Virus record (IMG/VR): IMGVR_UViG_3300050821_006280
Location: 45,559-109,558 of that record
Direction: 5' to 3' (one strand)
Length of the DNA stretch: 64,000 bases
Source: a virus
Below the pieces are notes generated by a model, which was given only the letters and a program-made list of their open reading frames with translations, made no database searches and had not been told where the DNA came from. This document shows positions 43,871 to 59,980 of this stretch, one piece after another. Within the stretch, counting starts at the first letter, position 1; every line of letters starts with the position of its first letter. A program made the position numbers and the translations under genes.

Positions 43871-43942
43871 TCGGGGATAGGTCAATGGTAGACCAGCAGC
43901 CTCTGGAGCTGCGTGTTGGGGGTTCGAGTCCCTCTCCCCGAA
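43871..43942 (+). tRNA. tRNA-Gln(CTG)
   Basis: Acceptor TCGGGGA/TCCCCGA, D arm GGTC/GACC, anticodon arm GCAGC-CTCTGGA-GCTGC, T-loop TTCGAGT. The anticodon CTG is repeated in the split gene at 53088. Confidence 0.9.
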
Positions 43943-44166: not shown

Positions 44167-44298
44167 GCACCTGATGGTCAACGGTAGACCACCATCCTGA
44201 ACAGATGGCAAATCAAATACCAGGATTGCACCTCGGCTCCTTACGGAGCCAACTAGTGATCCTCACAAGCAGAGAAGGTTCGACTCCTTCCAGGTGCG
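44167..44298 (+). tRNA. tRNA-Phe(GAA) with 65 nt variable-loop insert
   Basis: The tRNA body is complete: acceptor GCACCTG/CAGGTGC, D arm GGTC/GACC, anticodon arm CCATC-CTGAACA-GATGG, T arm GAAGG-TTCGACT-CCTTC. The variable region spans 44209-44273 (65 nt, normal about 5). It forms AGGAT/ATCCT, CAC/GTG and GGCTCC/GGAGCC helices (44222-44263). The same insert occurs in the next two tRNAs. It may be spliced, tolerated, or make this a specialised RNA. Confidence 0.7.
44209..44273 (+). ncRNA. structured insert family, copy 1
   Basis: Helix A 44222-44226/44259-44263, helix B CAC/GTG, internal loop CTC facing AACTA, helix C GGCTCC/GGAGCC with a TTAC loop, then CACAAGC. The helices covary with copies 2 and 3. 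Confidence 0.65.
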
Positions 44299-44304
44299 CA
44301 ACAT

Positions 44305-44434
44305 GGCGCGTATGGGGATGGTCCCCAGCTCTCTTCCAAAGAGTGCAATATCCAGGATGGCACCTCGGCTTGAATAACAAGCCAACCAGCGATCCTCACA
44401 AGCTTTGTCGGTTCGATTCCGGCACGCGCCTCCA
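44305..44434 (+). tRNA. tRNA-Gly(TCC) with 62 nt variable-loop insert
   Basis: Acceptor GGCGCGT/ACGCGCC, D arm GGGG/CCCC with a short loop, anticodon arm GCTCT-CTTCCAA-AGAGT, T arm GTCGG-TTCGATT-CCGGC, encoded CCA. The variable region is 44345-44406. An intact tRNA-Gly(TCC) exists at 46338. Confidence 0.7.
44345..44406 (+). ncRNA. structured insert family, copy 2
   Basis: Helix A AGGAT/ATCCT (44354-44358/44392-44396), helix C GGCTTG/CAAGCC, internal loop CTC facing AACCA, then CACAAGC. Helix B has one A-C mismatch here (CAC/GCG). Confidence 0.65.
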
Positions 44435-44446
44435 CAGTAGCAACAT

Positions 44447-44582
44447 GGGTGAACACAGAGGGAGGGTCCCTCGCCAGCCTTGATAGCTGGAGCCAAAAGC
44501 TCCCAGAATCACACCTCGATCTCAGCAATGGGATCAACTCGTGGTTCTTACACGCCATCCGGTTCGACTCCGGGTTCATCCA
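44447..44582 (+). tRNA. tRNA-Ser(TGA) with 67 nt variable-loop insert
   Basis: Acceptor GGGTGAA/TTCATCC, D stem GAGGG/CCCTC with a 5-nt loop, anticodon arm CCAGC-CTTGATA-GCTGG, T arm TCCGG-TTCGACT-CCGGG. The variable region is 44491-44557. Ser tRNAs normally have a 15-20 nt arm, so the excess is about 50 nt. An intact Ser(TGA) is at 58932. Confidence 0.65.
44491..44557 (+). ncRNA. structured insert family, copy 3
   Basis: Helix A AGAAT/GTTCT (44505-44509/44544-44548), helix B CAC/GTG, helix C GATCTC/GGGATC, internal loop CTC facing AACTC. Base changes relative to copies 1 and 2 keep the pairing. Confidence 0.65.
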
Positions 44583-44595
44583 CTGATTTGTTTTT

Positions 44596-45255: not shown

Positions 45256-45690
45256 ATGCGAGAGCTTAGTCACCACACGAAGGATAAAGGCGATCAAGGA
45301 GTCGGGTTCGTGATCGCTTCGCTTCTTTCCCACAATATCAAGATTGCTCTTCCGCTAAGTGAACATCTTCCGTTTGATCTGATTGCAATTTCTACTTCAG
45401 GACAAATGCGAAAGGTGTCAGTTAAGTATCGTGCGGAAAGAGATAGCAAAATTGAGGTAAGACCAGAAAGTAATTGGTCGAACGCAAAACAGTTCTGCAC
45501 TCGCAAATACGAGCCAGGCGAAGTCGATGCATATGCCATCTACTGTCCTAATACAAAGACGTGCTATTTTGTTCGGGAGTCAGATGCACTTCATGGAATC
45601 ATTCTTCGCATGGAACCGCCAGGCAACGGCCAGACAAAGGGCATACGAATGGCGAAGGATTTCGTAGATCCAAATTCGATATTTGTATAG
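45256..45690 (+). CDS. PD-(D/E)XK homing-endonuclease-like protein, 144 aa
   Basis: Start at the Met of MRELSHHTK. HTKDKGDQGVGFVIASLL, then LPFDLIAISTSGQMRKVSVKYR, gives the Glu/Asp ... Asp ... Val-x-Lys order of the PDDEXK_5 family that includes intron-encoded enzymes such as I-Ssp6803I. No intron is visible. It stands just upstream of tRNA-Ser(GCT), 7 bp away, so it may home into tRNA genes. Confidence 0.65.
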   Translation: MRELSHHTKDKGDQGVGFVIASLLSHNIKIALPLSEHLPFDLIAISTSGQMRKVSVKYRAERDSKIEVRPESNWSNAKQFCTRKYEPGEVDAYAIYCPNTKTCYFVRESDALHGIILRMEPPGNGQTKGIRMAKDFVDPNSIFV

Positions 45691-47038: not shown

Positions 47039-47455
47039 ATGAAAAACGATCCAAAAGCCAAAGGGGAGCGATCGGAGGCTATGGTTCTAGCGGCACTTCT
47101 GCGAAGTGGCAAGTCCGTTCTGCGACCGTTCGGTGATAACGAGCGATACGATCTAGTCATTGACGACGGCGAAAAATTCTCCAGAGTTCAATGCAAAACA
47201 GCACGTCGGGTTGGAAACGTCCTTAAATTCGACACGTGTTCATCGTATTCGCACCGCGGTGGGAAGAAAAAAGACTACCGCGGCCAGGTTGAGTTCTTTG
47301 GCATCTACAGTCCAGATGTCGATCGTGTATTCCTTGTTCCAGTCAGTCATGTTGGTACCACGAGCGCATCGCTTAGACTTACTCCGACTGTTAATGGCCA
47401 GCATGTCAACGTTAGGCTTGCTAGCGATTATGAATTGTCTTTCATTCCAGCGTAA
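47039..47455 (+). CDS. PD-(D/E)XK homing-endonuclease-like protein, 138 aa
   Basis: AKGERSEAMVLAALLRSGKSVLRPFGDNERYDLVIDDGEKFSRVQCKTARR follows the PDDEXK_5 pattern: Glu in the first helix, Asp in RYDLVI, and Q-C-K as the (D/E)xK. This family includes tRNA-intron endonucleases. The gene begins where a tRNA 5' half ends. Its last codons (Ile-Pro-Ala-stop) are read from the first ten bases of tRNA-Asn. Confidence 0.75.
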   Translation: MKNDPKAKGERSEAMVLAALLRSGKSVLRPFGDNERYDLVIDDGEKFSRVQCKTARRVGNVLKFDTCSSYSHRGGKKKDYRGQVEFFGIYSPDVDRVFLVPVSHVGTTSASLRLTPTVNGQHVNVRLASDYELSFIPA

Positions 47456-52609: not shown

Positions 52610-52688
52610 GTGACGATAGGTTAAGGCTCCCGGTGGAGCCGCTGGTTTGTGGAACCAGCATCAGCGAGTTCAACTCTCGGTCGTCACC
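52610..52688 (+). tRNA. tRNA-His(GTG)
   Basis: Acceptor GTGACGA/TCGTCAC with C73 as in His tRNAs, anticodon arm CTGGT-TTGTGGA-ACCAG. The D region is unusual, with a six-pair GGCTCC/GGAGCC stem after an extra TTAA. Confidence 0.78.
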
Positions 52689-52698
52689 CCAATACGAT

Positions 52699-52999: not shown

Positions 53000-53115
53000 T
53001 GGATCACCTCCGATCAAATGATTATCGGCACAATCATTCTATGTTTCAATGTAATTAGAATCTGACGTGTGACGCAGGGTGTAAAACGGATCTGTAGCTC
53101 AGTTGGTCAGAGCGG

Positions 53116-53238
53116 CGAATTCTGGAAGAGATAGAAAAGTGTGACCTGGTGTGCGCCAACTGCCATCGCGAACGCACCTTCTCTAGGCAGTTCTCCGCTC
53201 ATAGCTCAAAGGCAGAGCAATCGGCTGATAACCGATAG
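53116..53238 (+). pseudogene. HNH endonuclease fossil
   Basis: In frame from inside the tRNA-Gln anticodon arm, the sequence reads ILEEIEKCDLVCANCHRERT. This is the typical C-terminal end of phage HNH proteins (KCDxVCANCHRxRT). The N-terminal part is missing, and the frame then runs into tRNA-Ile before a TAG. Confidence 0.75.
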
Positions 53239-53265
53239 ACGCAAGTTCGATCCTTGCTGGGCGGA
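53195..53265 (+). tRNA. tRNA-Ile(GAT), nested inside the split tRNA-Gln
   Basis: Acceptor CCGCTCA/TGGGCGG, D arm GCTC/GAGC, anticodon arm ATCGG-CTGATAA-CCGAT, T arm GCAAG-TTCGATC-CTTGC. Fully canonical. Confidence 0.88.
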
Positions 53266-53317
53266 CCGCTAGTTCAAGTCTAGCCAGATCCACTACAATA
53301 TCGGTTGGTGCTGGGGC

Positions 53318-59181: not shown

Positions 59182-59288
59182 GCTAGGGTTCTTGGTAGGA
59201 GCTGCGGGTCCCGCTCGATCGGCGATGTAGACTCGGGAGTCGAAATCTGATCGGTGCCGCAGTGCTGGTTCGATTCCAGCCTCTAGCT
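59182..59288 (+). tRNA. tRNA-like gene with about 40 nt insert, identity unclear
   Basis: Acceptor GCTAGGG/CTCTAGC and T arm GCTGG-TTCGATT-CCAGC are canonical. CTGCGG/CCGCAG can serve as the anticodon stem but encloses about 49 nt, including CGATC/GATCG and GACT-cggg-AGTC helices. The anticodon is not assignable. Confidence 0.45.
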
Positions 59289-59868: not shown

Positions 59869-59980
59869 GGTGGCGGTTCAAGTGGTCTTGGGCGGGTAGC
59901 TCCCGCAACTTGAGAGTTCGATTCTCTCAGCCCGGAAGGGTTCCTGGCTGGAGGATTGGGTTCGATTCCCACCGTCACCC
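59869..59980 (+). tRNA. composite tRNA-like gene with two T-arm hairpins
   Basis: GGTGGCGG pairs with CCGTCACC around 112 nt. It contains TCAAGT/ACTTGA enclosing GCGGG-tagct-CCCGC, a T-arm-like GAGAG-TTCGATT-CTCTC, an AGCC/GGCT hairpin, and a second T arm TGGG-TTCGATT-CCCA. It may be a tRNA with another tRNA's 3' part inserted. No anticodon can be assigned. Confidence 0.4.

Follow-up and report, generated by a model that had tools for sequence, protein, structure and literature searches.

The stretch of DNA analysed here (the window; 64,000 nucleotides, positions 45,559 to 109,558 of IMG/VR record IMGVR_UViG_3300050821_006280) belongs to a virus contig of 109,558 bases; its last 21 kb contain 43 tRNA genes called by ARAGORN, together with a tmRNA. 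Among these genes, two parts of one apparent tRNA are separated by other sequence, all on the plus strand. The 5′ part (53088-53114, with a possible extension to about 53121, tRNA position 33) consists of the acceptor strand GGATCTG, the bases TA, a D arm, GCTC-AGTTGGTCA-GAGC, and G26. It is followed at 53116-53180 by the 3′-end relic of an HNH endonuclease gene, RILEEIEKCDLVCANCHRERT, which was recognized by tblastn and blastn matches to annotated phage HNH genes, and at 53195-53267 by an intact tRNA-Ile(GAT) (67.7 bits) that ends in A73-C-C. This tRNA is the orthologue of the second of two consecutive tRNA-Ile(GAT) genes in related phages, which we call Ile1 and Ile2. The 3′ part of the broken tRNA (53268-53292) starts with its T arm, GCTAG-TTCAAGT-CTAGC, directly after the A-C-C of the tRNA-Ile(GAT) and continues with the acceptor strand CAGATCC and A73, after which the sequence reads CTA, not CCA. 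The insert between the halves measures ~145-150 nt, the 73-nt tRNA included. A first-pass annotation had described a split tRNA that encloses the decayed remains of an HNH gene and a complete tRNA-Ile, and all three are indeed present at 53088-53292.

The acceptor strand at 53088-53094 pairs 7/7 with that at 53285-53291; a proper D arm follows the former, and a proper T arm precedes the latter. We searched for comparable arrangements with a split-tRNA finder that required a T arm, a 7/7 Watson-Crick acceptor, and a D arm over a span of >96 nt. Within the window it picked out three places, the broken tRNA itself plus insert-bearing tRNAs at 44167 and at 44305. Neither 292 kb of reverse strand nor 200 shuffled versions of the 20-kb cluster gave a match. 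When 5′ and 3′ acceptor strands of different intact tRNAs from the window were paired with one another, only 3/1806 combinations reached 7/7. The earlier claim of a perfect acceptor match was thus confirmed, and because the control searches were empty and mismatched acceptors rarely pair 7/7, the two halves most likely come from one gene or from two copies of one gene.

On the 3′ side, the broken tRNA picks up again only from the T stem onward (or from variable-loop bases that it has in common with the end of the tRNA-Ile), which leaves it without the 3′ strand of its anticodon stem. No complement of GCGAA, the 5′ anticodon strand, was found between 53120 and 53292, even with wobble pairs included.

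Related phages and the order of their tRNA genes

We found no close DNA relatives in the phage collection, and none through a neighboring 153-aa protein or a DnaB-like helicase. A search with the capsid protein did yield relatives, at 67-86% amino acid identity, several of which carry 39-47 tRNAs. In G002 (with its near-twin G001) and in G005, the order is Ile(tat), Pro, Leu(cag), Ile(gat)1, Ile(gat)2, Val(tac), and Leu(taa), with an additional Met after Ile(tat) in G005; the Ile1-Ile2 pair is thus directly observed in two relatives. The window reads Ile(tat), Met, Pro, Val, Val, Ile, the broken tRNA with Ile2 inside, His, and Leu(taa). The nested tRNA-Ile matches Ile2, with 92% identity over 50 nt to the gene of another relative, G007, and the broken tRNA occupies the place that Ile1 has in relatives, directly before Ile2, except that Ile2 is nested within it.

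None of G002, G005, and G007 has the nested arrangement, and it is thus not a conserved design. A pattern search for Ile2 recovered G007 and unrelated phages, none with a nested copy. No relative was found to have Ile1 and Ile2 separated by an HNH gene, as a presumed intermediate would, or to carry two copies of Ile1. A whole tRNA-Ile does lie within the broken gene, as the first-pass annotation had stated when it proposed the capture of another tRNA. Because Ile2 normally follows directly after Ile1, however, a rearrangement involving the next-door neighbor fits better than capture.

The HNH relic and its junction with the tRNA

The relic comprises the last ~24 codons of an HNH gene, in the frame R-I-L-E-E-I-E-K-C-D-L-V-C-A-N-C-H-R-E-R-T, with its stop at 53238, inside the tRNA-Ile. 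The C-terminal C-x-N-C-H and its flanking residues are present, and the first catalytic His and the remaining domain are absent. Pfam gave no match up to E=1. Against annotated phage HNH endonucleases, the relic showed 79% amino acid identity to a gene of Daredevil (tblastn, E 3e-5) and, at the DNA level, 80% identity over 55 nt to Myrna (blastn, E 5e-4); 48/63 nt are identical to Myrna gp144. An HNH gene with the same C-terminal type (KCDLLCANCHR) and a longer frame is present elsewhere on the contig to which the window belongs, outside the tRNA cluster (L003:16668, minus strand).

The HNH homology runs back to the codon CGA at 53116, where Myrna gp144 has CGA ATC TTG and the window CGA ATT CTG, and the blastn match extends to 53115/53116 in Myrna and Spooky. 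The residues before the CGA codon are E-R-R in the window, K-K-R in Myrna, and K-E-R in G007, and by this likeness even the end of the D stem of the broken tRNA could be shared with the HNH gene. The joint is a stretch of microhomology, within CGAATTCTGGA. Since HNH homology reaches at least 53116, which is tRNA position 28, the tRNA/HNH boundary may lie anywhere from about 53108 to 53126. Given this range and the missing 3′ anticodon-stem strand, a break placed neatly in the anticodon loop was not confirmed.

In relatives and in further tRNA-rich phages, HNH genes of the same type directly abut the tRNA downstream of them, ending inside that tRNA or a few bases before it. One stands flush before Gly(tcc) in G007, and G005 has two, before Pro and before Cys, each of which ends 10 nt inside the tRNA. 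The HNH gene before tRNA-Lys of Myxococcus phage Mx1 (L136) ends 23 nt inside, and that of Myrna about 10 nt before tRNA-Tyr. Elsewhere in the window, two nuclease genes likewise run into the tRNA that follows them, a PD-(D/E)XK gene by 10 nt (into Asn, at 47446) and an HNH_3 gene by 15 nt (into Leu(gag)). Nuclease stop codons thus fall 10-23 nt within the downstream tRNA (window 47446 and 56398; G005, G007, and Mx1), and they are often a TAG/TAA at tRNA positions 8-10. In view of the HNH genes flush upstream of tRNAs elsewhere, the relic and Ile2 are best seen as one such unit. Since the HNH genes of these phages lie upstream of tRNAs and not inside them, and the tRNA-HNH joint is a stretch of microhomology, the proposal of an endonuclease invading an anticodon loop is not supported.

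Identity of the broken tRNA

The first-pass annotation read the CTG triplet at 53122-53124 as the anticodon of a tRNA-Gln. A CTG is present at tRNA positions 34-36, but it lies inside the HNH homology; the same bases are, in frame, the Leu codon of R-I-L-E in the relic, and the triplet is consequently no evidence of tRNA identity. The broken tRNA's own anticodon has been deleted or overwritten. We scored the remaining positions, anticodon left out, with a position-specific classifier whose training set was 400 tRNAs, from these phages and from others (66% accurate in leave-genome-out tests; 14/17 for Gln). Gln ranked last of 20 isotypes, with a log-odds of -23 compared to +1 to +3 for Val, Met, and Ile; the top isotypes, Val, Met, Ile, and Arg, all fell within about 2 log units. 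The 1-72 pair is T-A, A-T, or T-T in all 17 Gln tRNAs compared and G1-C72 in the broken tRNA.

Within the syntenic stretch, the best match of the 5′ half is tRNA-Ile(GAT)1 of G005 (24/27 identical) and that of the 3′ half is tRNA-Ile(GAT)1 of G002 (21/26), although the Ile1 match of both halves is weaker when they are compared against all phage tRNAs. At the matching place in the relatives stands tRNA-Ile(GAT)1 and no tRNA-Gln, and it is Ile1 of a relative, not Gln, that the 3′ half matches. In effect, this is the outcome that the first-pass annotation had named as refuting its reading, a 3′ half that in a relative is part of another tRNA. A D-arm 23-mer that we considered as an Ile1 marker was rejected, because phage tRNAs of many isotypes carry it, Met, Val, and Asn among them. 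An intact tRNA with the acceptor GGATCTG was found only once in viral contigs, in an unrelated tRNA-Met. Because the D arm is undiagnostic and the Val, Met, Ile, and Arg scores are close, the assignment to Ile1 leans mainly on synteny. By sequence and gene order, the broken gene is most likely a tRNA-Ile rather than a tRNA-Gln, and we infer that both halves come from a single gene, Ile1.

Other unusual tRNA-like genes

Three consecutive tRNA-like genes in the window (44167-44301, 44305-44434, and 44448-44584) were missed by ARAGORN and Rfam. They have acceptor, D, anticodon, and T arms, with the loops CTGAACA, CTTCCAA, and CTTGATA, and a ~70-nt structured insert between the anticodon arm and the T arm; the fold z values are -3.0, -1.7, and -3.4. 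The inserts (type 2) have a long stem, a conserved CACCTCG / CAACYMGYG internal loop, and an inner hairpin. G007 has a similar gene. Neither Rfam nor a pattern search of other viral contigs gave a match to the type 2 insert.

G002 (L100) and G005 (L097) contain seven tRNA-like genes of ~125-135 nt with a conserved insert of ~60-70 nt (type 1) in the anticodon-arm region and the motif AAAA..CCGT..TTGTTC-hairpin-GARCCGNCCGA..ATGGTTA. This insert had no Rfam match, and a pattern search of viral contigs gave only G001/G002 and G005. One type 1 gene abuts Ile2 in both G002 and G005 and is missing from the window. We rejected the insert-bearing tRNAs as a parallel to the broken tRNA, because they hold a conserved structured RNA in an otherwise whole tRNA, as opposed to an HNH relic and a second tRNA.

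ARAGORN also missed a probable tRNA-His(GTG) with an unusual D arm at 52611-52690 (GTGACGA...TCGTCAC). Two more tRNA-like sequences in the window have a good T arm and extra sequence, one at 59182-59287 with acceptors GCTAGGG/CTCTAGC and one at 59869-59980 with acceptors GGTGGCG/CGTCACC. The tRNA cluster of G005 includes a bacterial small SRP RNA (RF00169, 42.1 bits, above gathering; L097:18126-18208).

Discussion

We conclude that the outer tRNA is probably a remnant of Ile1, in which a local rearrangement put the 3′ end of an HNH gene and the neighboring Ile2 between the two halves. Breaks, probably made by a homing endonuclease, would have been followed by joining at short shared sequences, within CGAATTCTGGA at the tRNA/HNH joint and at GGACC where Ile2 ends; a transient tandem duplication may or may not have been part of the process. 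By a one-event route, an HNH-Ile2 segment would have inserted into Ile1 and displaced the anticodon and the 3′ stem strand; by a route of several events, a tandem duplication would have fused the T arm of Ile1 to Ile2 at its end, with deletions afterwards. The rearrangement of the tRNA cluster is probably linked to homing endonucleases, and the position of the relic suggests that the HNH enzyme itself may have been involved.

A less probable, though serious, alternative is that the halves derive from two copies of the same tRNA, one having lost its 3′ half through a deletion into an HNH gene and the other its 5′ half through fusion to the end of Ile2. Both junctions lie on short shared sequence, duplicate tRNAs occur in phage tRNA clusters, and tandem amplification of tRNA and nuclease units driven by homing endonucleases is documented (PMC13096335); however, this history requires two or three events, and none of the relatives found has a second copy of Ile1. 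The history put forward in the first-pass annotation, in which an HNH gene invaded the anticodon loop of a tRNA-Gln(CTG), later decayed, and picked up a tRNA-Ile, appears very unlikely. The one point in its favor is that TTCTGGA would be a valid Gln loop, resembling the CTCTGGA of the intact tRNA-Gln at 43871 and having TCTGGA in common with it, but these loop bases are HNH codons (R-I-L-E, with CGA ATC TTG kept in Myrna), and Gln is the lowest-scoring isotype for the G1-C72 acceptor and for what else remains of the two halves. Moreover, Gln(CTG) of the relatives adjoins Phe and Gln(TTG) lies between Thr genes, and no Gln occurs at this place. We consider a chimera from metagenome assembly or amplification to be slightly more improbable still: the IMG/VR contig does lack a close relative that would confirm its order, but the junctions share about 5-12 bases, far under an assembler k-mer, and the tRNA order continues on either side (Ile(tat), Met ... 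Leu(taa)).

The broken gene is best read as a dead pseudogene, whereas Ile2 has been retained and probably continues to be processed and used. A trans-spliced tRNA, for which the first-pass annotation proposed a check, is not tenable; the anticodon and the 3′ anticodon-stem strand are gone and nothing at the locus pairs with the 5′ strand, so neither cis nor trans splicing could restore the tRNA. A functional nested layout, in which the outer acceptor/T-arm minihelix would steer Ile2 processing or serve as an anticodon-less decoy for host tRNA-cutting defences, seems to us the least credible of the readings considered here. We regard the locus as a frozen footprint of nuclease and tRNA gene shuffling in tRNA-rich phages. 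It also cautions that an apparent anticodon beside a recombination joint may be a codon of another gene.

Group I introns interrupt bacterial tRNAs in their anticodon loops, often in association with homing endonucleases, and the interruption described here likewise falls within the anticodon arm. Unlike such introns, the insert includes a 73-nt tRNA, the 3′ anticodon strand is missing, and nothing is left to splice back; the insert had no Rfam intron match. Another likeness is found in the free-standing HNH genes of Mycobacterium phage Myrna (gp144), Mx1, G005, and G007, with which the relic shares both the C-terminal K-C-x-x-V-C-A-N-C-H and a place flush against the downstream tRNA, although those genes are complete and their upstream tRNA is intact, and here neither is the case. 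The flush HNH-tRNA units of several phages, in which the tRNA supplies the stop codon of the nuclease gene, are consistent with the view that homing endonucleases move together with tRNA genes.

Homing endonucleases drive recombination in phage tRNA regions, as described for SegB of T6 (PMC13096335) and T4 (PMC2988022). In T6 mutants that escape under Septu selection, a unit of tRNA-Tyr and a C-terminally truncated segB is tandemly repeated, and the junctions lie at microhomology that the 5′ end of the tRNA shares with the 3′ end of segB (PMC13096335); such joints therefore do arise in tRNA-nuclease regions. Our locus resembles the T4/T6 region in having a homing endonuclease gene between tRNA genes (PMC13096335; PMC2988022) and in microhomology recombination between a tRNA and the 3′ end of a nuclease gene. 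SegB, in contrast, is an active GIY-YIG enzyme and not an HNH relic, and the outcome in the SegB case was the amplification of intact tRNAs, whereas here it is a broken one.
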